From: Akkermansia muciniphila
GTDB taxonomy: Bacteria > Verrucomicrobiota > Verrucomicrobiia > Opitutales > Opitutaceae
Assembly: GCA_945888375.1 (NCBI GenBank)
Contig: CAMCZZ010000020.1
Coordinates: 1-64,000 of the forward strand
Direction of reading: 5' to 3'
DNA: 64,000 bases
The notes under the pieces are model-generated. The model was not told where the DNA came from. It saw only the letters and a list, made by a program, of their open reading frames with translations, and searched no databases. A program made the translations under genes and the position numbers. Positions 38,288-55,748 of the stretch are shown piece after piece (position 1 is the stretch's first letter; the number at the start of each line of letters is the position of its first letter).

Positions 38288-39556
38288 TCAGCGGTGGACG
38301 TGGAACCCGTCGTAAAGCGGGTTCAGCTCCTTCGCCTCGCGGAGGTATTCGCGAGCCCGCGCCGTCTCGCCGGCGGCTTGGAAAATCAGCGCCGCGTGCA
38401 CCAGCAGGTGCGGGTCGCGCACGCCCGGGGCGAGGGCGTTGCGCATCGCCGCCTGCGCCTCGACCTCCTCGCCGGCCCGGTGCAGCGCCCAGGCCAGCGC
38501 ATCCCAGGCGCCGACGCTGCGACGCAGGGCAAGATCCCGCCGCGCCCACCGCACCGCCTCAGCCGGATCCACCCGCACGTCGGCGTAAAAGCCCGCCAGG
38601 TGGTGGTAATAGTGGGCGTTGCCCGCCTCCGCCTGAGCCAGAAATTCCGCGCCGGCGCGGTCGTGCCAGCCCTCCGCCTCCGCCACCCGCCCCGCGGCCA
38701 CCAGCACGTCGCCCAACGCCTGCCAAAGCTCGGGCCGGCGCAAACGCTCCGCCAACGGTCGATAGACCGCCAGCGCGCCCTCGAAGTCGCCCTTGGCCGC
38801 CAAGACCTCGCCGAGATGATCCTCGGCCGCGAACCACCCCGGCGTCTCGGCCAGCGCCGCCCGAAAGGCCCGCTCGGCCCGGTCGAGCTCGCCGCCAAGA
38901 AACGCCAGGTAACCGCGCTGCACCAGGCACCAAGCCACAGTCTCGGGCGCGCGCGGCGCCTCCTTCTCCGCCGCCGCCCGGGCCGCGTCCATCCTCCGTG
39001 CGGCCTCGCCCGGTTTGCCCCGGATGAACGCCCGCCGCGCCCGGCGTATTTCCGTCCCGCTGGCCCCCGGCTCCAACCGCTCCAACCGCTCCCAGGCCGC
39101 CTCCGCCGCCGGGTAGTCGCCGAGTTCAAAACACGCGTCGCCCAGAATGCGCCACGATTCCGCCCGCTCCGGTTCGGCCGCGGTCAAGGTTTCCCCGTCC
39201 GCCCGCGCCGTCACGAAGTCGTGCGCCGCCGCCGCCGCGAGCGCGCGCAGCACGATGCCGTTGCGATTCTGGCCCGCCGGCACGGCGCGAAGCGATTCGC
39301 GGGCGGCGGCCACCGCCAGCCCGGCGCAGGCGGGGTCGCCCTCCCGTCGCAAGCGCTCCAGATAAAGTCCACCCAGACGATTCCAGGCCACGTGGTCTTC
39401 GGGATCGGAACGAACCCGCTCCTCCAGAAACGAACGCGCCGGATCACCTGACGCCGCCTTCGCGGGCTCCGCCGCCAGCGCGGCGAAATGGCCGGCCAAT
39501 CCCAGACAAACCGCCGCCAACCGTCGTCGCGCGGTGCGTCCCATCTCCCCGGTCAA
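38288..39556 (-). CDS. Tetratricopeptide repeat protein, exported
   Basis: Signal peptide and multiple TPR-like helices; ATG overlaps the stop of the DUF4331 gene. Confidence 0.8.
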   Translation of the reverse strand: MTGEMGRTARRRLAAVCLGLAGHFAALAAEPAKAASGDPARSFLEERVRSDPEDHVAWNRLGGLYLERLRREGDPACAGLAVAAARESLRAVPAGQNRNGIVLRALAAAAAHDFVTARADGETLTAAEPERAESWRILGDACFELGDYPAAEAAWERLERLEPGASGTEIRRARRAFIRGKPGEAARRMDAARAAAEKEAPRAPETVAWCLVQRGYLAFLGGELDRAERAFRAALAETPGWFAAEDHLGEVLAAKGDFEGALAVYRPLAERLRRPELWQALGDVLVAAGRVAEAEGWHDRAGAEFLAQAEAGNAHYYHHLAGFYADVRVDPAEAVRWARRDLALRRSVGAWDALAWALHRAGEEVEAQAAMRNALAPGVRDPHLLVHAALIFQAAGETARAREYLREAKELNPLYDGFHVHR

Positions 39557-40797
39557 TTGCGCGTGTTGTCGTCGATCACGCCCGGCAGACGCGGCTGCTG
39601 CGACAAAGCGAAAAAGGGAAACACATCGCGCGGCGGCACGTCGCTGGCGTCGACGCTGTCGCCGAAGGGGGTGCCGTTGTTGATGTCGGTGAGGGTGATG
39701 TCCACCGTGTCGTCGATCAAGCGGCGGCCGTTGGGAAAACGCGCCTCGATATTCGTTCCGCCCATCAATCCGGTATTGGCCACCTCGGTGTCCAAGCGGA
39801 TGTAGTCGCCGACAAAGACCGCGTTCTGCGCCAGCTTGGCGATGTATTCGTCGTTCGCCCCCAGCTGAATGAGCGTGGCGACGATCAACTCGGCGAATCT
39901 CGCGTCGGCGTCCTGCGTCGGCGTGCCCGTGTTGAAGGCGTTTTTGTCGACGAAGGGGATGAGGGCCACGTTCACCGCCGGGGTGGCCGCGCGGTCGACC
40001 TGCCGGTAGGGCGGCACGACTTTACCCCGTCCCTTGGAGTTCACCACCAGGCCCGCTCGGTAGGTCAGGACGTTCAGCCCGACCTTGTGGTAGACCTTCG
40101 GATCGGTGGCGGCCGGTTTGGTCTTTTTCACCCGCAGGTAGGAGACGGGCATGCGCAGCGCGATCGACATGGTGTTGTAGCCGGCGAAGCTATCGCGCCC
40201 GCGCTTGAGTTCGTCGCGATTCTCGGCCTCGGCGCGCACCGACGCCGTCCAACGGGCGAAGGCCGGAATGTCAAAAAAGAAGGGATCATCGACCTCGCCC
40301 GCGAAGAACGAGATGTCCGTCGCCGCGTCGGTGGTGACCACCTGGGTGGGGGCCGTGGTGGCGAGGGACGGGTTGGTCGCGGGCGCGTGCAGCACCAACG
40401 TCTTTTTGCGGTTGCGCGGGTCCAACATCTTGATCGTGGCGATCTGCGCCAGGGTGTTCACCTCGCGCGGACTGAAGGTCACGTCGATGTTCAGGTCGGG
40501 CTTGGGATTGCCGTTGTTTTCAATCTGAAAACGATAAAGCACGGCGGTGTCGAAAATGCCCTGGTTGACCGCCTCGCCCGGCACGATGAAGCCGCGCACC
40601 GTCATCGAGATCACGATGTAGTTGTTATCGTTTGGATCGAGGAAGATGAAGGAGTCGTTCAGGTCCGCCGCCGCGTCGTTGGAGGTGAAGGGAGCGTCCG
40701 CGTGGTCCGCCGCCCTGACCAGGGTCGCGCCGACCGCAAGCGCTTAGACCATGGCCAACAGCGTCGCAACCAGCCCGGGCAGGGATGAAATTTTCAT
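39553..40797 (-). pseudogene. DUF4331 domain protein interrupted by an in-frame TAA in its signal peptide
   Basis: Minus-strand reading MKISSLPGLVATLLAMV*ALAVGATLVRAADHADAPFTSNDAAADLNDSFIFLDPNDNNYIVISMTVRGF; stop at 40744-40746, rest open to 39553. Confidence 0.75.
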
Positions 40798-40871: not shown

Positions 40872-42527
40872 TTGACGTATCCGCCTCTCCGGCACGGATG
40901 TTTGAGGTTGCCGCAAACCGGCGGCGAATCCACACCCCCGGAACGCGTGGCAACGCCACCCGCCCTTTTGTTTCCCTTTTCCTCCGTGCCTCCGTTTCTC
41001 GCGTCTTTTCGCCGTCTTTTCCTGATCGCCGCGGCGCTCGGCGCCGGGTTGGCCCGGGCTTATACCCCGGCGGTCCTCCCCCCCGTCTACACCGCCGCCG
41101 ACCTCGACCGCATCCAGCAACAGGCCGCCGACCTGGCGATGGAACGTTTCCCTCGCTCCGTGATCGCCATCGTGGACCGCGACGGCCGCGTGCTCCTGCT
41201 GCGACGCGCGAACGGCACCGGCTCCATCCTCGCCAACGAACGCGCCATCGCGGTCGCCAAGGCCGGCACCGCCGTCTTTTTGAGTTCGAACGAGCACTCT
41301 TTCACCCCCCGCACCGCCAGTTTCGTAATCCAGGATAATTTCCCGCCCGGCATCCGCAACAAACCGCCCGGTCCGCTGGTGGGCGTCGGCCTCTCCAACC
41401 TGGCCTATTCCGACATCAACTATTTCCGCGCCGTATCCGGCGCCCGTATCCCGCTCACCCGCCTGCGCGCCTCGCCCGGCGGGGTCCCCCTTTATAAGAA
41501 CGGTCGCCTCTTCGCCGGTATCGGCGTGCACGGCGACGGCACCGAGGCGGAGTTCACCGACGACGACGGCTACTACCTGACCCTGGGGCCGGACGAGGAC
41601 GAGGCCGTCGCCCTCGCCGGCCAGATCGGCTACGCTCCCGATCACCGCCTCCACGGCACGGGAATCTTAATCGACGGCATCCGCCTACCCTATGTCAAAA
41701 CCCCGGTCCGCGCCGCCCGCGTCGCCGGCGCCGCCCCGGTCATCCCCGCCGCCGTCCCGCCGCCACCCCTCGTGTGGCCGACCGACACCCTCGGCGGCGT
41801 GATCGGTGAAATCCGCGCGGCCATCGTGGCCGATCCCGTCGCCGGCCTGATCGACGGGCAGGTTCGCCTCTCCGCCGCCGAGGTTCGCGCCATCCTCGCC
41901 GCCGGCGCCGCCCGCGCCCGCCAGACCCGAGCCGGCATTCGCCTGCCCGTCGGCCGCCCCGCCCAGGTGTTCATCAGCGTGGTCAACAACCCCGCCGCCC
42001 CGGGCGTGGCCCCGGTCGTGCTGGGAACCTTCCGCACGCCCGACGCCACGCTCTTTTCGTGGGACGTCTCGGTCCAGAAGGCCCGCACCGTGGTCTACTA
42101 TTCCTCGAACAAGCGCGCCCTCTCCGCCCGCGCCGTGGGTTTCCTTTCGCAGATCCATTTCCCTCCCGGCATCAACCGACGCGGACCCGGCCCCTTGGAG
42201 GAGGAACAGTTCGAGGTGTCCCTACCCCTCTTGGTCAGCCCCGTTTCCGCGACGAACGGCGACCCCGCCTTGCCCAACGGCATCACGATCTTTCCCGGTG
42301 CCTTTCCTCTGTTTCGCAACGGCGTGATGATCGGCGCGGTCGGCGTGTCCGGCGACGGCATCGACCAGGACGACCTCATCGCCGCCTCGGCCGGGGCCGC
42401 CTTTGTGCCGCCCGCCGCCGTGCGTTCGGATGCGTTTGTCGAGGGCGGCGTCCGCCTGCCCTACGCCAAGTTCCCCCGCGACGCCCAGCTCCGCAGCGAG
42501 GTCCGGCCCCTCACCCGCGGCCCCTAA
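40872..42527 (+). CDS. Double DUF336 (GlcG/HbpS-like) putative heme-binding exported protein
   Basis: Two tandem DUF336-like domains; signal peptide beginning near 40987 (VPPFLASFRRLFLIAAALGAGLARA). Confidence 0.78.
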   Translation: MTYPPLRHGCLRLPQTGGESTPPERVATPPALLFPFSSVPPFLASFRRLFLIAAALGAGLARAYTPAVLPPVYTAADLDRIQQQAADLAMERFPRSVIAIVDRDGRVLLLRRANGTGSILANERAIAVAKAGTAVFLSSNEHSFTPRTASFVIQDNFPPGIRNKPPGPLVGVGLSNLAYSDINYFRAVSGARIPLTRLRASPGGVPLYKNGRLFAGIGVHGDGTEAEFTDDDGYYLTLGPDEDEAVALAGQIGYAPDHRLHGTGILIDGIRLPYVKTPVRAARVAGAAPVIPAAVPPPPLVWPTDTLGGVIGEIRAAIVADPVAGLIDGQVRLSAAEVRAILAAGAARARQTRAGIRLPVGRPAQVFISVVNNPAAPGVAPVVLGTFRTPDATLFSWDVSVQKARTVVYYSSNKRALSARAVGFLSQIHFPPGINRRGPGPLEEEQFEVSLPLLVSPVSATNGDPALPNGITIFPGAFPLFRNGVMIGAVGVSGDGIDQDDLIAASAGAAFVPPAAVRSDAFVEGGVRLPYAKFPRDAQLRSEVRPLTRGP

Positions 42528-42546: not shown

Positions 42547-43665
42547 TCAACCAGCGCCGCCGACCAGCCGCGCCAACTCGTCCAGGAGCGTGGCGAAACT
42601 CGCCGGCTCGAAGTCCGGCACCGATTGCGCCGCCGCGAACAAACGCACCAGCACCGGCTCGGCGGCCTTGGCGCGCGCCCGCTCCGGCCACGCCGCCACC
42701 ACCCGGTCCAGCCCGAGCACGAGGCGCTCCGCCCGGTAGGCCTGCTCCAGTCGGGAAACCCCCGCCGCCCGGAAATCCCCGCCCGCCCCGGCCAGACGAC
42801 GCAAGACCGCCTCGCCTTCGCCCGCCGGCCAGTCCGCGTCCGCGCGCCGCGCGACCGCGTCCGCCGCGAGTCCTTCCAGCCGTTCGCCGCCCGCCCGGCC
42901 GACCAGCCAGGCCAGCGCCGCCTCGCGCTCCGCCGCGCCCGCCAGCGTGTCCCGGCCGTCCGAGCGGGCCGCCGACGCCTCGCACCACGCCACCGCCTGA
43001 CCGACCAACCACGCTTTCGCGCCGTCCCAGCCATGCACCTCGCGCCAATGCGCGGGCTCCGCGGCCAGCTGGCCGTCCAATTCAAAGATCAAACGCGGGT
43101 GCCGGCCGGTCTCGACCAGGCGCGGCTCGATCACCTGATGGCAGGCCACGCACGCGTTGGCCCGGGCGTAGGCGGAGCGCAGGTCCCGCATGCCCGCCGC
43201 GACCTTGGCCGCGTGGTCCAGCTCCGGACGGGTGTGCGTTCGCAGCCAGCTCTCCGCACTGTCATGGCAACTCGCGCAACCCACCCCGTCCTCGATGCGG
43301 AGGTCCGCCCCGCGCAGCCCCTCCGGCACGCTCGCGGTCGGGGCATGGCAAACCGTGCAACTCGCGCTGGTTCGCACGTCGGCGATTCCCAGAGCCTCGC
43401 CCATGCGCGCCGAACGCGGCGTCGCCAGGGTGTCGTAGGAACGCGCATGGGGATCTTCGCGGGTGAAGGTCGCCACCGCCCCATGCACCGGCCCGGCGCC
43501 GCCATGACACCCGCTGGTGGCGCAGGAAGCCGTGCCCAAGACCTTGTGCATCAAGAATTCGGCTTGATCGGCCGCGACCTCGGCCCGGGCCGAGCTGAAA
43601 GTCGCCGCATTAAAAAAAAGGCAAAGGCCAAGTATTAGCGGTTTACGGCGCATAAGGGTTGTCAC
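42547..43665 (-). CDS. Multiheme c-type cytochrome (cytochrome c554-like)
   Basis: Signal peptide; CTVCH, CASCH, CVACH and one CATSGCH (CX4CH). Confidence 0.82.
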   Translation of the reverse strand: MTTLMRRKPLILGLCLFFNAATFSSARAEVAADQAEFLMHKVLGTASCATSGCHGGAGPVHGAVATFTREDPHARSYDTLATPRSARMGEALGIADVRTSASCTVCHAPTASVPEGLRGADLRIEDGVGCASCHDSAESWLRTHTRPELDHAAKVAAGMRDLRSAYARANACVACHQVIEPRLVETGRHPRLIFELDGQLAAEPAHWREVHGWDGAKAWLVGQAVAWCEASAARSDGRDTLAGAAEREAALAWLVGRAGGERLEGLAADAVARRADADWPAGEGEAVLRRLAGAGGDFRAAGVSRLEQAYRAERLVLGLDRVVAAWPERARAKAAEPVLVRLFAAAQSVPDFEPASFATLLDELARLVGGAG

Positions 43666-43750: not shown

Positions 43751-45043
43751 ATGTCCGCGATCGATCTCTCCCCCACCAGCCTCGCCTTCCTCTTTGGCTG
43801 CATCCTGGTCGGCGGCTTGATGCTGCAGGGCGGCCTGACCCTCTTCCACTCCCTGCGCGGCGCCGTCCACGCCGGCAACGCCCAGGCCCGCGAAATTGAA
43901 CGCCTGGAACTCGAAATCCAAAACGCCCGCCTCCGCCTCCAGACCATCGAGCAGGAACGCGCCGGTTGGAACGGCGTCCGAAAGTTCGTGGTGTCGAAAA
44001 AAGTCCCCGAATGCGCCGACACCTATTCTTTCCACCTCACCCCCCACGACAGCCGCCCCATCCCCGGCTTTAAGCCCGGCCAGTATCTCACCTTCCAACT
44101 CCTCCTGCCCGGCCAGGCCAAGCCCATCGTCCGCTGCTACTCGCTCTCCGACTGCGCCCGCCCCACCCACTACCGCGTCACCATCAAACGCTGCCCGCCG
44201 CCGCCCAAGACCGACCACCCGCCCGGCAAGGGTTCGTCGTTCTTCTGCGACGCGGTCAAGGAGGGCGACATCCTCGACGTGAAGGCCCCCGCCGGGCACT
44301 TTTTCCTCGATCTGCAAAAGGACAAACCCGTCGTCCTGATCTCCGGCGGCGTCGGCATCACCCCGATGATCGCCATGGCCCACGCGTTGATCGAGGCCAA
44401 GTCCGGCCGAGAGGTCTGGTTCTTCTTCGGGTCACGCGGCAGCGAAGACCACATGTTGCGTGCCGAGACGCTCGCGCTCGCCGAGAAATACCCGAACCTG
44501 AAGCTGCAAATCTGCTACTCCCGGCCCGGTAAGAACGACGTCGCCGGCCGCGATTACCAACACGAGGGCCGCGTCACGGTCGAGTTGATGAAGAGCCTTC
44601 TGCCGTCCCAGAATTACGACTTCTTCCTCTGCGGCCCGGGCTCGTTCATGGAGAGCATCACCGACGATCTCCGCACCTGGGGCGTGCCCGACGCCGCCGT
44701 CCACTTCGAGGCCTTCGGCCCCGCCTCGGTCAAGAAGGCCGCCAAGCCCGAGATGAAGGCCACCCTGACCACCATGCCCTTCGCCGGCGGCGCGATGATC
44801 AGTTTCGCCAAGTCCGGCCAGTCCGCCCAGTGGAGCCCCGCGCACGCCACCCTGCTGGACGTGGCCGAGTCTTGCGGCGTGCGCATCGAGGCCGGCTGCC
44901 GGGCCGGCAATTGCGGCGCCTGCCTCGTCGCCATCAAGTCCGGCGAGGTCGAATACATCATCGAACACGGCGCCGACGTCGAAGCCTGTTCCTGCCTCGC
45001 CTGCATCTGCAAACCCAAGGGCGCCCTCGTCCTCGACGCCTAA
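43751..45043 (+). CDS. NqrF/Hcr-like membrane-anchored FAD/NAD(P)H oxidoreductase with C-terminal 2Fe-2S ferredoxin domain
   Basis: N-terminal TM; RCYSLSD FAD motif; LISGGVGITPM; CRAGNCGACLVAI plus CSCLACIC 2Fe-2S ligands. Confidence 0.88.
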   Translation: MSAIDLSPTSLAFLFGCILVGGLMLQGGLTLFHSLRGAVHAGNAQAREIERLELEIQNARLRLQTIEQERAGWNGVRKFVVSKKVPECADTYSFHLTPHDSRPIPGFKPGQYLTFQLLLPGQAKPIVRCYSLSDCARPTHYRVTIKRCPPPPKTDHPPGKGSSFFCDAVKEGDILDVKAPAGHFFLDLQKDKPVVLISGGVGITPMIAMAHALIEAKSGREVWFFFGSRGSEDHMLRAETLALAEKYPNLKLQICYSRPGKNDVAGRDYQHEGRVTVELMKSLLPSQNYDFFLCGPGSFMESITDDLRTWGVPDAAVHFEAFGPASVKKAAKPEMKATLTTMPFAGGAMISFAKSGQSAQWSPAHATLLDVAESCGVRIEAGCRAGNCGACLVAIKSGEVEYIIEHGADVEACSCLACICKPKGALVLDA

Positions 45044-45060
45044 GCCCCCTCCGTCTCCCC

Positions 45061-45090
45061 GCTCCTCGCTCCCCGCTCTCCGCTCCACGC
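45061..45090 (+). repeat. Heptamer tandem repeat directly 5' of the cNMP/4Fe-4S gene
   Basis: GCTCCTC GCTCCCC GCTCTCC GCTCCAC GC then ATG. Confidence 0.7.
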
Positions 45091-46803
45091 ATGTCCACCG
45101 TCGCCAGCCTCGATCGCCACCGCCGCTGGGACGCCCCCTTCGACGCCGAATTTCCACCCGAGGCCGTCGCCCGCCTGCTCGCTCTCGCGCCCTTCAGCGC
45201 GATGAACGCGAAGAGCTTCCCCCGCTCCGCCACCCTGCCGGACATCCTGCGCAACGACACCGCCATCCGCACCTTCCAGGCCGACGAGCTGATCGTGCGC
45301 GAAGGCGACTACGGCACCTCCGCGTTCCTCATCCTTAAGGGCCGCGCCCGCGTCGTCCTATCGCCCGGCCTCCCGCCCTCCGCCGTCGGCCGCAAGGAGC
45401 GCGGCCGAAAGGGTCTGCTCCGCTCCCTCGCCCAGCTCTGGTCCAACCCCCGCGAGGACGAGGTCGTCGCCCGCCGCCGCCGCCAGGCCGAGGCCAGCCG
45501 CTCCGTGTTCCTACAGGACGTCCCCCGCGTCCTCGGCGAACACAAGACCGCCGGCATGCACGCCGGAGATTTTTTCGGCGAGATCGCCGCCCTCTCGCGC
45601 ATGCCCCGCACCGCGACCATCTTCGCCGAGGAGGACGGCACCCAGCTGCTGGAGATCCGCTGGCAGGGCCTCCGCGACCTGCTCAAATACGATCCCGCCC
45701 TGCGCACCCACGTGGACAAGATCTACCGCCAGCGCGCGCTCGCCTCCTACCTTCAGGAAATCCCCTTCCTCCGCCACCTCGCCCCCGAGGCCCGCGCCGC
45801 CGTCGAGGCCGCCACCCAGTTCGAGACCTTCGGCGACTACGATTGGTCCGGTGAATACAAAAAACTCGTCCAGGCCGGCGCCGCCGCCGTCGCCAAGGAG
45901 ACCACCATCGCCGCCGAGGGCGACTACCCCAACGGCATCGTGATGGTCCGTTCCGGCTTCGCCCGCCTCACCCAGCGTCATGGCGCCGGCCACCGCACCC
46001 TGAACTACCTCGGCGCTGGTCGCGTCTACGGTTTCGACGAGATCGCCCACAACTGGAAAAACCCCGACGCCCCCGTCGCCCTCCAGCACAGCCTGCGCGT
46101 CATCGGCCACACCCACGTCCTCACCATCCCCGCCGCCGTCATCGAGCGCCACGTCCTGCCCGGCTTGCCCGCCAACCAGCTCCCGCCCCCCGTCGTCCTC
46201 CCCGACGCGACTCCCGCCACCCGCGCCCCCGCCGCGAAAGCGAAAACCCGGCCCGCCGAAGCCGCGACGGACGCCGCCCTGATGGAGTTCCTCACCCAGA
46301 ACCGGTTGTTCAACGGCACCGAGTCGATGGTGATCGACCTCGACCGCTGCACCCGCTGCGACGACTGCGTCCGCGCCTGTGCCTCCACCCACGGCGGCAA
46401 CCCCCGCTTCCTTCGCCACGGCCCCATTCACGACCACCTGATGGTCGCCCAGGCCTGCATGCACTGCGCCGACCCCATCTGCATGATCGGCTGCCCCACC
46501 GGCGCCATCCACCGCGACAGCTTCGGCGGCGAGGTCGTGATCAATCCCGACACCTGCATCGGCTGCACCGCCTGCGCCAACAACTGCCCCTACGGCTCCA
46601 TCCGCATGGTCGAGACCCGCGACGAGGACGGCCAGCCGCTCGTCGCCAAGGACCAGAAACCCCTGCTGAAGGCCACCAAGTGCGACCTCTGCCTGGACCA
46701 GATCGGCGGCCCCGCCTGCGTCCGCGCCTGCCCCCACGACGCCCTTGATCGCCTCGACCTGAACACCCTCGACCCCCTCACCGCCTGGCTCGCCCGCCGC
46801 TAG
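45091..46803 (+). CDS. Cyclic-nucleotide-binding domain protein fused to 4Fe-4S dicluster ferredoxin
   Basis: cNMP-type segment (ELIVREGDYGTSAFLILKGRARV, DFFGEIAALSRMPRTATIFAEE); four Cys clusters CTRCDDCVRAC, CMHCADPICMIGC, CIGCTACANNCPYG, CDLCLDQIGGPACVRAC. Confidence 0.88.
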   Translation: MSTVASLDRHRRWDAPFDAEFPPEAVARLLALAPFSAMNAKSFPRSATLPDILRNDTAIRTFQADELIVREGDYGTSAFLILKGRARVVLSPGLPPSAVGRKERGRKGLLRSLAQLWSNPREDEVVARRRRQAEASRSVFLQDVPRVLGEHKTAGMHAGDFFGEIAALSRMPRTATIFAEEDGTQLLEIRWQGLRDLLKYDPALRTHVDKIYRQRALASYLQEIPFLRHLAPEARAAVEAATQFETFGDYDWSGEYKKLVQAGAAAVAKETTIAAEGDYPNGIVMVRSGFARLTQRHGAGHRTLNYLGAGRVYGFDEIAHNWKNPDAPVALQHSLRVIGHTHVLTIPAAVIERHVLPGLPANQLPPPVVLPDATPATRAPAAKAKTRPAEAATDAALMEFLTQNRLFNGTESMVIDLDRCTRCDDCVRACASTHGGNPRFLRHGPIHDHLMVAQACMHCADPICMIGCPTGAIHRDSFGGEVVINPDTCIGCTACANNCPYGSIRMVETRDEDGQPLVAKDQKPLLKATKCDLCLDQIGGPACVRACPHDALDRLDLNTLDPLTAWLARR

Positions 46804-46830
46804 GTTTTCACCCCCATGCAAACGCCTCCG

Positions 46831-46865
46831 ACATTGGTCATTGGACATCGGACATCGGTCATTTC
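46831..46865 (+). repeat. Five-unit heptamer tandem repeat in the leader of the b-type membrane protein
   Basis: ACATTGG TCATTGG ACATCGG ACATCGG TCATTTC. Confidence 0.85.
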
Positions 46866-46870
46866 CTAGC

Positions 46871-47698
46871 ATGCCCCGCCCGCTCCAGATCCGCCGCGCC
46901 GTCCTCTCCCTGCTCACCCTCGGCGCGGCCGGCGTGCTCGCCCATTATTATCCGCGGCTCGCAGCCGGATTCCCCCATCTGGTCTACCTGACCGGCTGGT
47001 TCCTCTTCGCCCTCTGCCTCGGCCTGACCGCCTACAACCTCCGCAAAAAACTTCCCTTCCTGCCCCTACTCTCCTCTCGCGTGTGGTTGCAGTTCCACGC
47101 CTACGCCGGACTTTTCGCCGGCGTCCTGTTCATTTTCCACCTTCGCTTCTCCGTCCCCACCGGCCCGTTTAATCTCGTCCTCGCCGGCCTCTTTCTCGCC
47201 GTGACCCTGAGCGGCATCGGCGGTTGGTGGCTCTCCCGCGCCATCCCCCGTCGCCTCACCAGCGCCGGCGGCGAGGTGCCCTTCGAGCGTATCCCCGTCG
47301 TCCGGCGCGACCTCCGCCTGCAGGCGGAGAAAATCGCGCTCGGCGGCATCCCCGAGGCCAAGGCCACCACACTCGCCGATTTCTATGTCCGTGAACTCGC
47401 GCCCGCCTTCGCCGCCAGCCCCGCCTTTTTCCCCCACCTGCTCGGCTCCCGCGCCGCCTTGAACAACCGCCTCGCCGCTCTCGCCGAGTCCGGCCGCTAC
47501 CTCGCCCCTGCGGAGCAGACCCGTGCCGAGCAGATCGCCGGGCTCGTGCGCGCCCGCCACGCTTTGGATTTCCACCACGCCAACCAGCTCCTGTTAAAGA
47601 GCTGGCTCTTCGTCCACCTGCCCCTGACCTACGCCCTGCTCGTGTTCACCGCCGTCCATATCCTGCTCGTGCACGCCTATTCCGGAGGGGCCCGATGA
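46871..47698 (+). CDS. Membrane b-type cytochrome-like protein (ferric-reductase-like TM anchor)
   Basis: Several TM segments with His pairs (WLQFHAYAGLFAGVLFIFHLRF; FVHLPLTYALLVFTAVHILLVHAY). Confidence 0.65.
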   Translation: MPRPLQIRRAVLSLLTLGAAGVLAHYYPRLAAGFPHLVYLTGWFLFALCLGLTAYNLRKKLPFLPLLSSRVWLQFHAYAGLFAGVLFIFHLRFSVPTGPFNLVLAGLFLAVTLSGIGGWWLSRAIPRRLTSAGGEVPFERIPVVRRDLRLQAEKIALGGIPEAKATTLADFYVRELAPAFAASPAFFPHLLGSRAALNNRLAALAESGRYLAPAEQTRAEQIAGLVRARHALDFHHANQLLLKSWLFVHLPLTYALLVFTAVHILLVHAYSGGAR

Positions 47699-49422
47699 GC
47701 ACCGAAGGCCGCCAGCCATCACCCGAGTTCTACGACACCCGCTACGAGCGTCCCCAAAAGGACTGGATCTGCGGCCGCGCCTGCGACGGCTGCCCCTGCC
47801 GCCTCGGCCCCTCCCCCGCCGGCGCCTGCCGCGCCGGCCCCGATTGCAAACCCCTTTTGGTCACCGCCCCGGGCGAAACCAAGGGCCTGTGGAAATGCAC
47901 CCGTCCCGCCGATTGGGGCGGCACCTGCCCCGAAGGCCCCCGCCCCGACGGTTCGTGCTGCCGGTCGACTCCGCCCTGCGTCCCCGTGCGGAGCCTTCGC
48001 GCCCGCCGCGGCTTGCTCGTGAGCGCCACGATCGCGGCCTCCCTCGGCGTGCTCCTTTTTGTGCTCTTCGGCCCGGCCCGCGACCACGTCATCACCCCCG
48101 GCCCCCTCAGCGCCGTCCACTCTGGCCCCCACTTCACCGCCGCCCACGCCGCCGCCGGGGTCACCGATCCAAGCGGCTGCGCCCAGTGCCACCCCGCCGC
48201 CCACCAGTCGCCCGCCGGCTGGGCCGCGGCGACCGTCCGGCTCGCCACCACCGGCACCCTCTCGCCCGCGAATCTCCTCGCCCACGACGCGCGGGATTTT
48301 CGCGCCATGGACGCCGCCTGCCAAAGCTGCCACACGCCGCACTCGTTCCACCAGGCCAGCGAGGCCCGCGACACCTCCTGCTCCGTCTGTCACCTCGAAC
48401 ATCAGGGCCGCGCGCAAAACCTGCTCGCCGTCGACTCCACCCATTGCACCGCCTGCCACGGCTCGGCGTTGGAGATGGGCGACGCCGGCTTGCTCGCCCG
48501 CAAACTCGACCCCGCCCTCTTAGAGAAAAAACTCTCCGCCGGCCGCGTCGGCTTCCCCGTCGCCCGCCCGCCGGAAGGCCTGACCTCGCTGATCACGTCC
48601 TTCGCCGGCGACCATCCCGAGTTCCGCGCCAATCTCCCCGGCAACCGCGATCCCAACGCCCTCGCCTTCAACCACGCCCTTCACCTCACCGGCCCGAACA
48701 TCCCGCTCCTCGACGGCCAGGCCCTCGACTGCCGCTCCTGCCACGTGCCCGATCCCACCGGCGCGCTGATGCAGCCGGTGAAGTTCGCCCTTCACTGCCA
48801 GTCCTGCCACGGCCTGCCCATCGATCCGACCACCCCCTCGCTCGTCGTCCCCCACGGCTCCCCCGAAAACGCCCGCGCCTTCCTCCGCGCCCTCCCCGCC
48901 GCCTACTCCGACGACGCCGTCCGCCGCCTCGGCCTCGCCGGCAAACCGCTCCGCCAACACGTCTCCGCCAAACTCGCCGCCCTGCGCGACCGCCACCCCT
49001 CCGGGGAGGAACTCGAACGCAAGGTGTTCTTCGGCGACCCCACCCCTCCCGCCGGCCGAGATTCGTGCAACCTCTGCCACGTCGTGACCGCCGCCCCCGC
49101 CGGCGCCGCCCCCTTCATCGCCCCCGTGCGCCCGGTGGACGTCTGGCTGCCCCGCGCGCGCTTCGACCACGCCCGCCACACCCAGATCGACTGCGTGTCC
49201 TGCCACGCCGCCCCCGCCAGCGTCGCCACCTCCGATGTCCTGATGCCGGCGAAAAACACCTGCGCCTCGTGCCACGGCCCCGAGGGCGGCGTCACCGACG
49301 CGTGCACCGACTGCCACGGCTACCACAACCCCCGCCCCGCCGGCCTCCCGACCACCACCGCGGCCGCCGCCGACGCCCCGCTGCCCGCCGCCCTGCAACG
49401 CGCTCTCGCCTTGGCGCCTTAG
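47695..49422 (+). CDS. Decaheme c-type cytochrome with Cys-rich N-terminal domain and one TM
   Basis: Ten CXXCH motifs (CAQCH, CQSCH, CSVCH, CTACH, CRSCH, CQSCH, CNLCH, CVSCH, CASCH, CTDCH); 11 Cys before the TM; ATGA overlap with previous gene. Confidence 0.88.
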   Translation: MSTEGRQPSPEFYDTRYERPQKDWICGRACDGCPCRLGPSPAGACRAGPDCKPLLVTAPGETKGLWKCTRPADWGGTCPEGPRPDGSCCRSTPPCVPVRSLRARRGLLVSATIAASLGVLLFVLFGPARDHVITPGPLSAVHSGPHFTAAHAAAGVTDPSGCAQCHPAAHQSPAGWAAATVRLATTGTLSPANLLAHDARDFRAMDAACQSCHTPHSFHQASEARDTSCSVCHLEHQGRAQNLLAVDSTHCTACHGSALEMGDAGLLARKLDPALLEKKLSAGRVGFPVARPPEGLTSLITSFAGDHPEFRANLPGNRDPNALAFNHALHLTGPNIPLLDGQALDCRSCHVPDPTGALMQPVKFALHCQSCHGLPIDPTTPSLVVPHGSPENARAFLRALPAAYSDDAVRRLGLAGKPLRQHVSAKLAALRDRHPSGEELERKVFFGDPTPPAGRDSCNLCHVVTAAPAGAAPFIAPVRPVDVWLPRARFDHARHTQIDCVSCHAAPASVATSDVLMPAKNTCASCHGPEGGVTDACTDCHGYHNPRPAGLPTTTAAAADAPLPAALQRALALAP

Positions 49423-49427
49423 CCCCC

Positions 49428-51752
49428 ATGCGCCCCTTCCGTAACCCCGGGCCTCGGGCATCGTTCCTTGGTCATTGGTCATTGGACATTGGTCATTCGC
49501 GCAGCATCCGTCCGCTTTCCTGCCTGCTCGCCGCGCTCGCCGCCGTCGCGCCCGCCCGCGCCAGCCATCCGGCGCCCGCGCCCGCCGCCGACGAAATCCC
49601 GCCCGACGCCCCCCGCGCCCACCAAAAGATCGATCCCGGCCCGCCCCCCGCCGCCCCGGCCGACACCCCCGCGGATTCCGGCGCGCCGCTTCCTCCCCTC
49701 CCCGCACCCGGCACCCCCGCCCGCCGCTTCGCCCCCGCGACCACGCCCGCCGCGCCCGTCTTCAACCCCGACCCCGGCGCGACCCAGTCCACCGAGCCAC
49801 CCGCCGCCGAGGCGCCCTTCTTCGTCGAGGACCCCGCGCCCCCCACCCCGCCCGCGCCGCCCCCGCCCGCCTTGCCCACCGGCCAGGTCGATCGCCCCGC
49901 GACCGTCTCCACGCCCTCGCCGCTTACCTCCGATCCCGCCGACGTCACCCCGCTCGCCTCCGACTTCCCCTCGCCCCTGCCGCGTTCCGACGTCCGCCGC
50001 ACCGAGTTTATTCCCGCCCACCACGGCCACGGCTGGCCCGCGCCCGGGCCGGACACCTACCCGCTCGCCGCCCGCGGCGAAGGTTACCCGGCCAACACCC
50101 AACCCGTGCCCGATCGTTGGCGTGACGCCTCCTTCGGCCCCTGGCGCCGCTACACCGCCGGCGACCTGAACGAACAACCCTTCGGCCACCCCGAACCCGA
50201 AACCTGGCACTGGTATCGCCAAAGCCTGCTCAAAGGCGACGTCCCCATCCACGGCCAGGACTGGTTCCTCGCCCTCACCGCCTCCTCCGAAACCCTCTAC
50301 GAGGACCGCGCCCTGCCCCTCCCCAGCGGCGTGAGCGCGTCGGCCCCCGGCCAGTCGGATTTCCTCGGCTCCTACGACACGACCGTGTTCGTGCAAAACG
50401 TCGCCATCGACGCCCTGCTTTTCCAGGGCGAAACCGTGTTCGTCCCGCCCCGCCAGACCTTCAAGCTGCGCCTCGTCGCGAACTACAACCGCGTCACCGT
50501 CGCCGCCCCCGGCCTGCTCAACCCCGACCCCGGGTCGCCCGGCGGCGGCAACGACGCCCCCACCCGCCGCAACGACGCCTTCCTCGCCGTCCAGGAAGCC
50601 TTCTACGAATACCATATCACCGATCTCTCCCCCAACTACGACTTCATGTCAGTCAAGGTCGGCCTCCAGACCTTCAACTCGGATTTTCGCGGCTTCATCT
50701 TCAACGAAACCCAGCTTGGCGTCCGCCTGCTCGGCAACGCCGACAACAACCGCCTCAACTACAACCTCGCCGTCTTCGACCTGCGCGAGAAGGACACCAA
50801 TTCCGAGCTGAACACCTTCGACGCCCGCCAGCAGGTCGTCGTCGTCGCCAACCTCTACCGGCAGGATTTCCTCGCCAAGGGCTACACCGCCCAGGTCTCC
50901 CTCCACGGCAATTTCGACCAGGGCGGCGGCGATTACTACGACACCAACGGCTCCATCGTCCGGCCCGCCCCCCTCGGCACGCCCGCGCCCCACGATCTCG
51001 CCGTCGGCTATCTCGGCTGGACCGGCGACGGCCACGTCGGCCGGCTGAACCTCAACCACGCCCTCTACCACGCCTTCGGCACGGACGAGTTCAACGGCCT
51101 CGCCGGCCGCGAGGTCGTCGTCTCCGCCTCCCTCGCCGCCCTCGAGCTGAGCTACGACCGCGACTGGATCCGTTTTAAAACCTCTGCCCTCTTCGCCACC
51201 GGCGACGCCGACCCGACCGACGGCCGCGCCACCGGCTTCGACAGCATCGTCGACAACACGAATTTCATCGGCGGCCCGTTCAGCTATTTCGTCCGCCAGA
51301 GCTTCAACCTTGCCGGCACCGGCGTCGCCGCGAAACAGCGTTTTTCCGTCCTGCCCAACCTGCGTTCGAGCAAAACCCAGGGGCAGGCGAATTTCGTCAA
51401 CCCCGGCGTCCTCCTGCTCGGCGTCGGCGCCGACATCGAGGTCACCCCCCGCCTGCGCGCGTTCGTGAACCTGAACCACATCGACTTCGCCCGCCCCGAG
51501 CCGATCGAGGCCGCCCTCTTCACCAACGAGGTCCACACCGACCTCGGCTGGGATCTCTCCCTCGGCCTGCAATGGCGCCCGCTGTTGACCGACAACATCA
51601 TCGTCTCCGCCGGCTACGCCGTCCTCCTGCCGGGCCGCGGCTTCGAGGACATCTACCGCAACACCGTGCCCGCCGTCCCCGGCCTGTCCCGCTCCCCCGA
51701 ACCCGCCGACCACCTGCACAGCGCCGTCGTCGCCGTGACGCTGACCTACTGA
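49428..51752 (+). CDS. Outer-membrane beta-barrel (porin-like) with Pro-rich N-terminal linker
   Basis: In-frame ATG at 49428 after the decaheme stop; Pro/Ala-rich linker, alternating beta-strand pattern, C-terminal aromatic residue (VTLTY). Confidence 0.72.
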   Translation: MRPFRNPGPRASFLGHWSLDIGHSRSIRPLSCLLAALAAVAPARASHPAPAPAADEIPPDAPRAHQKIDPGPPPAAPADTPADSGAPLPPLPAPGTPARRFAPATTPAAPVFNPDPGATQSTEPPAAEAPFFVEDPAPPTPPAPPPPALPTGQVDRPATVSTPSPLTSDPADVTPLASDFPSPLPRSDVRRTEFIPAHHGHGWPAPGPDTYPLAARGEGYPANTQPVPDRWRDASFGPWRRYTAGDLNEQPFGHPEPETWHWYRQSLLKGDVPIHGQDWFLALTASSETLYEDRALPLPSGVSASAPGQSDFLGSYDTTVFVQNVAIDALLFQGETVFVPPRQTFKLRLVANYNRVTVAAPGLLNPDPGSPGGGNDAPTRRNDAFLAVQEAFYEYHITDLSPNYDFMSVKVGLQTFNSDFRGFIFNETQLGVRLLGNADNNRLNYNLAVFDLREKDTNSELNTFDARQQVVVVANLYRQDFLAKGYTAQVSLHGNFDQGGGDYYDTNGSIVRPAPLGTPAPHDLAVGYLGWTGDGHVGRLNLNHALYHAFGTDEFNGLAGREVVVSASLAALELSYDRDWIRFKTSALFATGDADPTDGRATGFDSIVDNTNFIGGPFSYFVRQSFNLAGTGVAAKQRFSVLPNLRSSKTQGQANFVNPGVLLLGVGADIEVTPRLRAFVNLNHIDFARPEPIEAALFTNEVHTDLGWDLSLGLQWRPLLTDNIIVSAGYAVLLPGRGFEDIYRNTVPAVPGLSRSPEPADHLHSAVVAVTLTY
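49465..49499 (+). repeat. Five-unit heptamer tandem repeat, same family as 46831-46865
   Basis: TCCTTGG TCATTGG TCATTGG ACATTGG TCATTCG; falls inside the predicted N-terminus of the barrel CDS. Confidence 0.85.
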
Positions 51753-51776
51753 TTCCCTTCCCTCCCGCCTTTCCCC

Positions 51777-54700
51777 GTGCACTCCGTGGTTAAAAACTCC
51801 CGCCTCCGCCGCCTCGTCCTCCCCTTCGCCGCCGCCTGGAGTCTTGCCGTCGCGTCCCTGCTCCTCTTCGCCGGCCCGTCCGAACCCGCCGCCCCCGCCG
51901 CTCCGATCCGCGCCGCTGGGATCACCGGGCCCGCCACGGTCGAACTCGCCAAGCTCGAATCCGAAAACGCCCATCCCGCGCCGGAACGCCCCGCTCCGTC
52001 CCTCGTCGACCAGTCCCGCGCCGCCGCCGATCGTAAATCCGCCGGCTGCGTCGAGTGTCATACCGGCATCGAGGACATGCACGCCTCGCCCCACGTGGTC
52101 CTCGGCTGCGTGGATTGCCACGGCGGCGACCCCACCCCCGGCCTGACCATGCGCAAGGCCCATATCGCCCCCCGCCATCCCGAACATTGGCCGTCCTCCG
52201 CCAACCCCGCCGACGCCTCCGTCCTCCTCAACCACGAGTCCCCCGAGTTCATCCAGTTCGTGAACCCCGGCGACCTCCGCGTCTCGGAAAAGGCCTGCGG
52301 CCCCTGCCACGCCGAGATCAACACCCACGTCGGCCACTCCGTCATGCGCCACGGCGCCATGCTCTGGGGCGCCGCCCTCTACAACAACGGCGCCACCCCC
52401 GAAAAGGCCCCCCGCTACGGCCAGGCCTACGGCGCCGACGGCGTGCCCCTCCGCCTCGAGTCCCCCATCCCCGTGACCGACGCGCTGACCCGCATCCACG
52501 CCATCCTGCCCTTCATCGAGCCGCTCCCCCGCTTCGCCCTCGGCCAGCCCTCGAACATCCTCCGCATCTTCGAGCGCGGCGGCGAAAAACAAACCGAACT
52601 GGGCAACCCGAACGCCTTCGAGCCCCCCGGCCGCCCCGTCCGCCGCCTGTCCGAACGCGGGCTCGGCACCAACAACCGCACCGACCCGGTCTACCTGAAC
52701 CTCCAGAAGACCCGCCTCCATGACCCGATGCTGGATTTCATGGGCAGCAACGACCACCCGGGCGACTACCGCTCCTCCGGCTGCACCGCCTGCCACGTCA
52801 CCTACGCCAACGACCGCTCGCCCGTGAACTCCGGTCCCTGGGCAAAATACGGCCACCAGGGCCTGTCGTTCTCCGCCGACCCCATGATCTCCAAGAAGGA
52901 GAAGGGCCACCCGATCAAACACCAGTTCACCCGCTCCATCCCCTCCTCCCAGTGCATGAACTGCCACATGCACCAGGGTAACCTCTTCGTGAATCCCTTC
53001 CTCGGCTACACCTGGTGGGACCAGGAGTCCGACGGCGAGTTCATGTATCCGAAAGAGCAGCACGACCCGTCCGACCCCGAGCAGGTCGGCCTCGCCGTCA
53101 CCACCCCCGAGGCCGCCGCCGCCCGCGGCCTGTGGAAGGACCCCGCCTTCTTCGAAAAAGTCGCCGAGCTGAACCCGAAGCTGAAGGAAACCCAGTTCGC
53201 CGACTACCACGGCCACGGCTGGATCTTCCGCGCCGTGTTCAAGAAGGACAAGGAGGGCAACCTGCTCACCCTCGACGACAAGATCATCCCCTCGTCCGAT
53301 TCGGAGAAATTCAAGAAGGCCGTCCACCTGAAGGACGTCCACCTCGCCCGCGGCATGCAGTGCGTGGATTGCCATTTCACCACCGACGTCCACGGCAACG
53401 GCCTGCTCTCCGCCGAGCCCCGCGCCATCACCGCCATCGAGTGTATCGATTGCCACGGCACCATCGACCGCCGCCCCACCCTCAAGACCTCCGGCGTCGG
53501 CGGCCGCGTCGAGAACGGCCAGATCCTGCCCAACGACCTCGCCGCCGGCATCACCCCCTTCGGTCCCCGCTTCCGCTGGGAAGGCCGCAAACTCTACCAG
53601 CAATCTATGATGGCCAAAGACCTCGTCTGGGAGGTCCCGCAGACCATCGACACCGTCGACCCCACCTCCGCCCACTACAACCCCAAGAGCGCCTACGCCA
53701 AGACCCTCCGCCGCGACGGCCAGACCTGGGGCTCCGTGCCCGCCGGCCCCCACCCCACCGGCTCGCCCCGCGACGCCACCGGCACTCCGAAAGCCCTCGC
53801 CGCGTCCTCGCTCCCCGCTCCGGGCTCCGCGCCGCACGACCTCGCCCACGCCGACGCCAACATCAGCTGCCAGGTCTGCCACACCTCCTGGGCCACCTCC
53901 TGCTTCGGCTGCCACCTGCCGCTAAAGGCCAACCAAAAGGTCCCGGGCAACAAGTTCGAGGGTGCCAATTCGCGCTTCTACACCACCTACAACCCCCAGG
54001 TCGTGCGCGACGACGTGTTTATGCTCGGCCTCGACGCGAGCTACAAAAACCACCGCCTCGCCGTCCTGCGCTCGTCCTCCGCCATCATCGTCGGCTCCCA
54101 AAACGCCAACCGCGAGTGGGTCTACTCCCAGCAGCAGACCATCTCCTCCGAGGGCTATTCCGGCCAGGCCTTCAACCCCCACTTCCCCCACACCACGTCG
54201 TCGGTCGGCACGACCAAGGGCTGCACCGATTGCCACCTTTCCACCACCAACGACAACCACGCCTGGATGACCCAGCTGCTCGGCTTCGGCACCGGCACGG
54301 TCAATTTCTTCGGCCGCCACGCCTACGTCGCCAACGGCTCCCACGGCCTCGACGCCGTGGTCTGGACCGAGCGCGACGAACCCCAGGCCGCACTCGGCAG
54401 CCACCTCCACCGTCTCGCCTACCCGCGCAACCACGCCGAGCACCTCGCGAAAAACTCCGTGCTCGCCGAGGCGCATCATCACCACGGCGCGGGCGAGGTC
54501 CTCGACGTCCTCCAGCGCGGCGAATACCTCTACGCCGCCTGCGGCGAGGGCGGCTTCGTGGTCTTCGACATCGCCAACGTCGACAACAAGGGCTTCTCCG
54601 AACGCATCGTCACCGCGCCCGTTTCCCCCCTCGGCCAACGCCTCGCGGTGAAGACGAGGTTCGCCACCAGCGTGGTCGCGCCCTCCACCCTCGCCCTCGA

Positions 54701-55748
54701 TCCCCTCCGCTCGCGTTTGCCCGAAAACGAGGAGCAACCCATCGGCCTGAACTACGGCTTCATCTACATCACCGACCGTGAGGAAGGCCTTGTCGCCGTC
54801 CTCGCCGCCACCCTCCTCGACGGCGACCCGGCGAACAATTTCTTCAACGACAAGGACGTCGTGCGCTTCAACCCCGACGGCGTGCTCGCCGGCGCCACCC
54901 ATGCCTACATGGCCGGCACCCGCCTCTACGTCGTCTGCGCCGCCGGCCTGGCCGTGGTGGACGTCGCCGATCCCTTCCACCCCAAACTCCTCGCCGCACC
55001 CGTCGCCGGCCTCCTCCGCGATCCGCGCAAGCTCGCCGTGCAGTTCCAGCACGCCTTCGTGACCGACGCCGACGGCGTGAAGGTTTTCGATCTCTCCGCG
55101 CCGCTCGCGCCCAAGCTCATCGCCACGCTGCCCCTCGCCCACGCCGAGGGCCTCTACGCCGCCCGCACCTACCTCTACGTCGCCGACGGCCCCGACGGTC
55201 TGGCCATCGTCGACATCAAGAACCCCGCGCAACCCCGCATGCACAGCCACTTCACCGCCGACGGCGCCTTGAACGATACCCGCGCCATCCAGATCGGCGC
55301 GGTCAACGCGTCCATGTTCGGCCTCGTCGCGGACGGCAAAAACGGCCTGCGCGTCGTCCAGCTCATCAGTCCCGAGAACCAGCCCAACTACATGGGTTTC
55401 TCACCCGAGCCGAAACCGAAGCTCATCGCCACCTACCCGACCGCCGGGCCCGCCGTGGCCGTCAGCCGCGGCCTGGATCGCGACCGCGTGGTGGACGAGA
55501 CCGGCGGCCAGACCGTGGTATTCGGCCGGCGCGGCAGCCGCCCCTTCCACGAGCCGGAGTGGCTGAAGTTCCTGCAACACGCCGACGGCACCCCCTACCG
55601 GGTCGAGGACGTGCAAACCCAACCCGACGGCACCCTCGTGAGCACCGGCGGGACCGCCCTCGTCCCCGCAGCCTACGTCAGCCCCGAGCCCGCCGAGATC
55701 GCCGAACCCCAGCCCCGCCCCCGTCTAGAACGCCGCCCGACGCGTTGA
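51777..55748 (+). CDS. Large decaheme c-type cytochrome fused to a C-terminal LVIVD-type beta-propeller (1323 aa)
   Basis: GTG start; ten CXXCH motifs (CVECH, CVDCH, CGPCH, CTACH, CMNCH, CVDCH, CIDCH, CQVCH, CFGCH, CTDCH), then repeats such as YVVCAAGLAVVDVADPFHPKLLA and YVADGPDGLAIVDIKNPAQPRM. Confidence 0.88.
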   Translation: MHSVVKNSRLRRLVLPFAAAWSLAVASLLLFAGPSEPAAPAAPIRAAGITGPATVELAKLESENAHPAPERPAPSLVDQSRAAADRKSAGCVECHTGIEDMHASPHVVLGCVDCHGGDPTPGLTMRKAHIAPRHPEHWPSSANPADASVLLNHESPEFIQFVNPGDLRVSEKACGPCHAEINTHVGHSVMRHGAMLWGAALYNNGATPEKAPRYGQAYGADGVPLRLESPIPVTDALTRIHAILPFIEPLPRFALGQPSNILRIFERGGEKQTELGNPNAFEPPGRPVRRLSERGLGTNNRTDPVYLNLQKTRLHDPMLDFMGSNDHPGDYRSSGCTACHVTYANDRSPVNSGPWAKYGHQGLSFSADPMISKKEKGHPIKHQFTRSIPSSQCMNCHMHQGNLFVNPFLGYTWWDQESDGEFMYPKEQHDPSDPEQVGLAVTTPEAAAARGLWKDPAFFEKVAELNPKLKETQFADYHGHGWIFRAVFKKDKEGNLLTLDDKIIPSSDSEKFKKAVHLKDVHLARGMQCVDCHFTTDVHGNGLLSAEPRAITAIECIDCHGTIDRRPTLKTSGVGGRVENGQILPNDLAAGITPFGPRFRWEGRKLYQQSMMAKDLVWEVPQTIDTVDPTSAHYNPKSAYAKTLRRDGQTWGSVPAGPHPTGSPRDATGTPKALAASSLPAPGSAPHDLAHADANISCQVCHTSWATSCFGCHLPLKANQKVPGNKFEGANSRFYTTYNPQVVRDDVFMLGLDASYKNHRLAVLRSSSAIIVGSQNANREWVYSQQQTISSEGYSGQAFNPHFPHTTSSVGTTKGCTDCHLSTTNDNHAWMTQLLGFGTGTVNFFGRHAYVANGSHGLDAVVWTERDEPQAALGSHLHRLAYPRNHAEHLAKNSVLAEAHHHHGAGEVLDVLQRGEYLYAACGEGGFVVFDIANVDNKGFSERIVTAPVSPLGQRLAVKTRFATSVVAPSTLALDPLRSRLPENEEQPIGLNYGFIYITDREEGLVAVLAATLLDGDPANNFFNDKDVVRFNPDGVLAGATHAYMAGTRLYVVCAAGLAVVDVADPFHPKLLAAPVAGLLRDPRKLAVQFQHAFVTDADGVKVFDLSAPLAPKLIATLPLAHAEGLYAARTYLYVADGPDGLAIVDIKNPAQPRMHSHFTADGALNDTRAIQIGAVNASMFGLVADGKNGLRVVQLISPENQPNYMGFSPEPKPKLIATYPTAGPAVAVSRGLDRDRVVDETGGQTVVFGRRGSRPFHEPEWLKFLQHADGTPYRVEDVQTQPDGTLVSTGGTALVPAAYVSPEPAEIAEPQPRPRLERRPTR
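53806..53830 (+). repeat. Period-7 repeat inside the decaheme/propeller CDS
   Basis: CCTCGCT CCCCGCT CCGGGCT CCGC. Confidence 0.5.

Follow-up and report, generated by a model that had tools for sequence, protein, structure and literature searches.

The locus raises the question of whether a handful of adjacent genes can specify a complete path for electrons from cytoplasmic NAD(P)H to the cell surface, as the preliminary description of this DNA proposed. Within the window (the whole stretch of 64,000 nucleotides that was analysed, from a genome of 3.22 Mb) genes A to F occupy positions 43751–55748. On balance we lean towards reading them as belonging to a new porin-cytochrome-type conduit, spread across phyla, which would lead from NAD(P)H to a decaheme-propeller oxidoreductase at the outer membrane, F, whose position there and whose substrate we infer.

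Gene content and distribution

All six ORFs described as co-directional and close-set were located on the same strand, tightly packed, with gaps between successive genes from A to F of 47, 67, -4, 5 and 24 nt. The coordinates first given hold for these six and leave out two neighbours, U and V; the unit exceeds A–F and also takes in both of them. The genes are:

40872–42527, plus strand: V, secreted protein with two HbpS-like domains (Pfam PF03928, 4e-23)
42547–43665, minus strand: U, exported tetraheme c-type cytochrome (Pfam Cytochrome_C554, 7e-9)
43751–45043, plus strand: A, NAD(P)H:FAD oxidoreductase, anchored in the membrane and carrying a 2Fe-2S domain at its C-terminus (Pfam/NCBIfam)
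45091–46803, plus strand: B, fusion of CRP-type cNMP-binding domains with a HydN/DmsB-like domain for four [4Fe-4S] clusters (Pfam/NCBIfam)
46871–47698, plus strand: C, membrane protein, putative diheme cytochrome b (sequence motifs)
47695–49422, plus strand: D, inner-membrane-anchored decaheme cytochrome with a Cys-rich N-terminal cytoplasmic domain (sequence)
49428–51752, plus strand: E, outer-membrane 18-strand beta-barrel (AlphaFold2, Foldseek)
51777–55748, plus strand: F, exported decaheme cytochrome with a C-terminal LVIVD beta-propeller (Pfam/NCBIfam; AlphaFold2 for the propeller)

U is divergent from A. The favoured starts are ATG 45091 (B), ATG 46871 (C), ATG 49428 (E) and GTG 51777 (F); that of V is uncertain, its alignment with homologs beginning at about residue 47–51. 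Genes for a TPR protein and a DUF4331 protein adjoin V (window 38288–40614, minus strand). This pair is syntenic with the cluster in strain IMCC26134 (L037), which belongs to the same genus as the window genome, and lies next to V in another locus (L078); in L142 and L143 TPR genes are located close to the clusters of Sphingobium and Sphingopyxis.

The synteny survey proposed in the preliminary description placed A–F in nine Opitutaceae genomes and related sets in a Nitrospirota MAG and in Sphingobium, and thus in three phyla. D was found in 15 of 100 genomes of the family Opitutaceae: nine have it at full length, all with E adjacent, and six show similarity to its N-terminus only and have no E. 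Those nine genomes all preserve the gene order A-B-C-D-E-F (in G027 the genes fall on two contigs); U points away from it upstream, and V is in most cases close by. The retention of this order argues that the cluster did not arise by chance. When GTDB species genomes were scanned with the F alignment, at least 525 coding relatives were obtained, a figure that may include weak partial ones; the best 80 of these share 51–84% identity and are almost all from Verrucomicrobiota, with one from a Nitrospirae MAG. E lies directly upstream of F in 57 of the 62 loci having at least 2.6 kb of sequence upstream of F, and when six further genomes which lack this adjacency were searched with an E profile, five proved to have it at another site. 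Of the 52 loci offering 6.5 kb or more of upstream sequence, 37 have V next to E. The distribution of F is patchy, with seven positive genomes among 195 sampled across Verrucomicrobiota. The Nitrospirota MAG carries B-C-D-E-F; in a sample of 118 Nitrospirota genomes F occurred in the original MAG only, so that its occurrence there is rare, and it may represent a binning error.

The sets found in Alphaproteobacteria are plasmid-borne. On Sphingobium megaplasmids U-V-E-F form one tight operon, with E and F at approximately 41–44% identity, and an adjacent operon on the opposite strand encodes D, C, B and a CpdA-like phosphodiesterase; the set here comprises B with a fused flavin domain, C, D, V, E, F and U. 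Sphingopyxis plasmids also carry a tight U-V-E-F operon, its E relatives having approximately 41% identity. A literature search found no publication on multiheme EET in Sphingobium.

Inner-membrane module

A possesses FAD_binding_6, NAD_binding_1 and C-terminal Fer2 domains (Pfam/NCBIfam) and a hydrophobic segment at its N-terminus. It had been called NqrF-like. The membrane anchor and the FAD/2Fe-2S reductase are indeed present, but the domain order, FAD-NAD-2Fe2S, is that of Hcr/PaaE, and its top NCBIfam score was to flavohemoprotein reductase (263 bits, versus 88 for NqrF), so that A is better described as being of the Hcr/PaaE/flavohemoprotein type. B agrees with its earlier description as a cNMP-binding/4Fe-4S protein, having cNMP-binding stretches, four [4Fe-4S]-type Cys motifs and a PF13247 match (2.4e-11), and its gene lies directly upstream of C. 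Relatives of B in the Nitrospirota MAG and Sphingobium carry a fused thioredoxin-reductase-like flavin domain, and the presence of such an NAD(P)H domain on B itself supports the idea that A hands its electrons to B. The CpdA-like phosphodiesterase gene of Sphingobium, located between F and D (L142 18786–19634; L144 18697–19545) and annotated in L144 as a cAMP phosphodiesterase, fits the cNMP-binding domains of B.

C has 4–5 hydrophobic segments, two WX3HX13H motifs (W72-H76-H90 and W245-H249-H263) and SGXXG at 114–118, all of which motifs are shared by its Nitrospirota and Sphingobium homologs; it matched no Pfam or NCBIfam family. The same set, WX3HX13H twice plus SGXXG, characterizes the inner-membrane proteins of the PCC3 and PCC4 clusters, where it is read as binding two b hemes (PMC5566968), in keeping with the b-type membrane protein recognized earlier.

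D, likewise correctly described as a TM-anchored decaheme, has one TM segment (residues 107–125) and ten CXXCH motifs, its Pfam and NCBIfam matches being weak multiheme ones only. Exactly ten further His are invariant among 21 D sequences, hence all ten hemes can be bis-His; 60 columns are at least 95% identical. Residues 1–106 (window 47695–48012) form a conserved Cys-rich domain on the cytoplasmic side. Its place is taken by an FHA domain in Sphingobium and the Nitrospirae MAG, and some relatives lack it altogether; it may house a metal site or mark a regulatory swap.

In other Opitutaceae genera A, B and C occur together with a longer decaheme, D', and without E or F (L045, L046, L047). A–D therefore constitute a separable inner-membrane module, and D is part of it. 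Beside one of these E/F-less modules, at L045 5149–8091, lie genes for a secreted protein resembling cupredoxins and for a sensor kinase.

Outer-membrane module

U bears three CXXCH motifs and one invariant CX4CH, conserved in 20 homologs, and in the Sphingobium protein a fourth CXXCH is present. CX4CH spacing is familiar from cytochromes c3.

The outer-membrane barrel claimed for E is borne out by AlphaFold2, which gives 18 strands over residues 279–774, mostly with pLDDT above 90, in addition to a disordered and partly conserved N-terminal extension of approximately 230 residues. Neither a Pfam nor an NCBIfam family matched E, and sequence searches against the PDB gave no match; 93 columns are at least 95% identical. 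Among the Foldseek matches listed the nearest solved fold is AlgE (12% identity; TM-score, on the target, approximately 0.6), with MOMP and Occ/OprD porins next, and MtrB was absent from the 50 fold matches listed. Pfam Alginate_exp was touched by three of 50 E relatives. It had been allowed that the barrel might prove to be missing or an unrelated transporter; E is not absent, and its likeness to AlgE is one of fold only, which does not clearly make it such a transporter. A literature search found no publications on alginate-export porins in EET.

F is, as described, a decaheme with a C-terminal propeller: its ten CXXCH motifs place the hemes within residues 91–820, and an LVIVD repeat accompanies a propeller at approximately 848–1231. 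AlphaFold2 modelled the propeller well and most of the heme region with low confidence (pLDDT approximately 25–65), and a fold search with the model returned generic propellers. All ten hemes can be bis-His; neither CXXCK nor any other known active-site heme motif was seen in F, and Pfam gave no MtrC-family match. Against the ExtM model (NF040943) F scored 61.6 bits (4e-17) and the Nitrospirota copy 86.3 bits (1e-24), relative to a cut-off of 800, while stretches of F match octaheme nitrite reductases as a profile at 2e-4, far below membership. Neither D nor F falls in a known enzyme family, although it had been considered that both cytochromes might belong to a known periplasmic enzyme.

The N-terminus of F is of the exported type, many relatives having typical signal peptides, and a lipobox is absent from F and from every homolog inspected. 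The window genome encodes T2SS-like secretins, with matches below the family cut-off, so that an export route may exist. Mean identity between Opitutaceae genera is 70% for F (approximately 77% in the heme region), as against 63–64% for A and B, 56% for C, 52% for E and 49% for D. An alignment of 69 F sequences drawn from three phyla shows identity of 95% or more in 390 columns, and 13 His outside CXXCH are invariant. In Geobacter and Shewanella the cytochromes that evolve fast are those of the outer membrane and the extracellular ones (PMC12977616), and in the Ext conduits it is the extracellular parts which are replaced most often (PMC6148476). Since known surface cytochromes evolve fastest and F is the least divergent of its set, F is unlike a known surface cytochrome; the earlier label of "surface" decaheme is not supported as worded, given the exported-type N-terminus, the missing lipobox and the low divergence.

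The strong conservation of F may indicate a specific enzyme instead of a simple wire. It is conceivable, and we put it forward tentatively, that F is the founding member of a new multiheme enzyme family, which combines a decaheme with an LVIVD propeller and catalyses a single specific redox reaction at the outer membrane; that it is supplied by a new module which leads from NAD(P)H to the periplasm and is gated by cyclic nucleotides; and that the whole set moves between phyla, including onto the megaplasmids of aerobic sphingomonads. An NHL-repeat secreted protein is encoded downstream of F in 28 of 80 loci (e.g. L107 13657–14916); its gene occurs in many non-Opitutaceae clusters and is absent from the window.

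Relation to known conduits and probable function

By its parts, compared through description and motifs, the nearest published relative is PCC4. PCC4 and PCC3 are putative porin-cytochrome clusters of Fe(II) oxidisers, also reported from Alphaproteobacteria and Planctomycetes (PMC5566968). Both contain an inner-membrane protein with the motifs of C, and PCC4 (subgroup II) further resembles our locus in the PF13247 Fe-S partner upstream of that protein, as B precedes C, in its tetraheme and decaheme MHCs and in having a porin. The MHCs described for PCC4 have 4, 5 and 10 hemes, and none of them is extracellular (PMC5566968), whereas here there are 4 (U), 10 (D) and 10 (F) hemes, no pentaheme, and in addition the propeller decaheme F and the HbpS protein V.

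The same phylum has yielded an octaheme porin-MHC cluster, again a barrel adjoining an MHC, for which EET was proposed (He et al. 2017, mSphere; PMC5615132). Direct search showed it to be a different gene family, and it was rejected as the identity of A–F. A heme-motif search located clusters matching the 2017 description in two strains:

L132 6423–11271 (IMCC26134) and L133 4235–8886 (Opitutus terrae): NrfH-like hexaheme membrane protein, DmsE/GSU2203-like octaheme and barrel of 763/706 aa

The genome containing the second of these (G003) we take to be that of Opitutus terrae PB90-1. Strain IMCC26134 has both types of cluster; searches found neither E nor F in O. terrae, nor an octaheme-type barrel in the window genome.

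With MtrCAB, MtoAB and PioAB the locus shares the logic of a barrel plus decaheme cytochromes. It differs in that E is an 18-strand, AlgE-like barrel outside the MtrB/PioB family and F is no lipoprotein. D scored 19.2 bits against the DmsE/MtrA-family model TIGR03508 (cut-off 192.2) and is also TM-anchored, and a search of the whole window genome for MtrC/MtrF domains matched only ActA, the pentaheme of alternative complex III. The notion of two decahemes flanking the barrel as equivalents of MtrA and MtrC is consequently not supported in that form, for D is membrane-anchored and travels with A–C, and the outer-membrane operon of Sphingobium is U-V-E-F. Geobacter Ext/OmcB systems, including the ExtI/ExtM selenite-tellurite operon, offer an 18-strand conduit protein in ExtB (PMC6148476) and short stretches in ExtM that are shared with F; they differ in gene content, F lies far below the ExtM cut-off, and the A–F locus has no outer-membrane lipoprotein cytochrome. 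In the broad sense of an outer-membrane barrel encoded with multiheme cytochromes the locus is a porin-cytochrome one. The A–F system would appear to work like such a conduit and, judged by sequence, is a member of none of the Mtr, Ext and 2017 octaheme families.

We are thus inclined to see here an undescribed two-module trans-envelope electron-transfer system, with A–D in the inner-membrane module and U, V, E and F in the outer-membrane one. A would oxidise NAD(P)H via FAD and 2Fe-2S, B would relay the electrons through four [4Fe-4S] clusters under cyclic-nucleotide control, and C would pass them through the inner membrane by way of its two b hemes, a transfer from cytoplasm to periplasm which would not by itself conserve energy. 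D, as a membrane-anchored ten-heme wire, would lead them into the periplasm, and the tetraheme U would bridge from D to the outer-membrane module. There the barrel E, presumably with V, would hold F, which, if exposed outside, would exchange electrons with an extracellular acceptor or donor; in this order of flow we favour the outward direction. Counting in favour of a conduit are the association of E with full-length D (9/9) and not with the D N-terminus alone (0/6), the frequent adjacency of E and F together with the recovery of E elsewhere in five of six further genomes, and the recurrence of the same set on Sphingobium plasmids and of most of it in the Nitrospirota MAG. Of the complete porin-cytochrome conduit originally suggested there remain the NAD(P)H/flavin/Fe-S entry, the diheme-b step and, for 57 of 62 loci, the barrel beside a multiheme cytochrome; the roles assigned to D and F are not supported as stated, and E is not MtrB-like.

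Against a conduit count the missing lipobox and low divergence of F and the resemblance of E, in its fold, to a polysaccharide exporter. The last two of these features would also suit a dedicated enzyme fed by a porin: E would be a substrate-specific, AlgE-like uptake or export porin, F would be a decaheme oxidoreductase in the periplasm whose soluble substrate is admitted by E, and A–D with U would only supply or drain electrons, none of which leave the cell. The constraint on F is enzyme-like, and its 13 invariant non-CXXCH His exceed the ten that would suffice; its weak matches to ExtM and octaheme nitrite reductases, and the aerobic sphingomonads among the carriers, point the same way. Yet F displays no known active-site heme motif and can have all of its hemes bis-His coordinated, the multi-step trans-membrane wire formed by B, C, D and U exceeds that of most periplasmic reductases, and ExtI-type porins also act beside such cytochromes in a conduit-like operon (PMC6148476). 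We regard this enzyme as unlikely, if deserving of attention.

A conduit running inwards, in which an extracellular donor such as Fe(II), Mn(II) or reduced humics is oxidised and electrons pass via C to quinone or NAD(P)+, strikes us as rather improbable. The likeness of C and its PF13247 partner to the PCC4 set, proposed from genomes of Fe(II) oxidisers (PMC5566968), would agree with it, as would the aerobic Sphingobium carriers and the alternative complex III encoded in the window genome. The cytoplasmic entry is, on the other hand, an NAD(P)H-type flavoprotein. The Opitutaceae, moreover, are mostly fermentative or heterotrophic, a lifestyle that speaks against this reading. Most improbable of all is that A–D are an independent periplasmic redox module and the mere neighbour of an unrelated E-F pair. 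A–D do occur without E and F in the three other Opitutaceae loci mentioned, and E-F are often found without A–D within 10 kb; but the modules come together in varied arrangements in Opitutaceae, other Verrucomicrobiota, the Nitrospirota MAG and Sphingobium, and a relative of C is encoded in 21 of 22 E-F genomes having no C nearby (10 close, 11 weak).

Homology to Mtr or Ext is the usual means of recognising conduits, and the surface cytochromes of conduits evolve fast. The almost invariant F provides a searchable marker of the whole set across Verrucomicrobiota, the Nitrospirota MAG and Alphaproteobacteria, and Sphingobium offers potentially tractable cultured hosts. The conduit that we favour would tie NAD(P)H in the cytoplasm, and perhaps cAMP signalling as well, to redox chemistry outside the cell or at the outer membrane, in groups that are not known for it. 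The gene set is complete, and one of nearly equal content is present in three unrelated bacterial groups; it very probably carries electrons between the cell interior and the outer surface, and does so, we are somewhat disposed to believe, by the system explained here.
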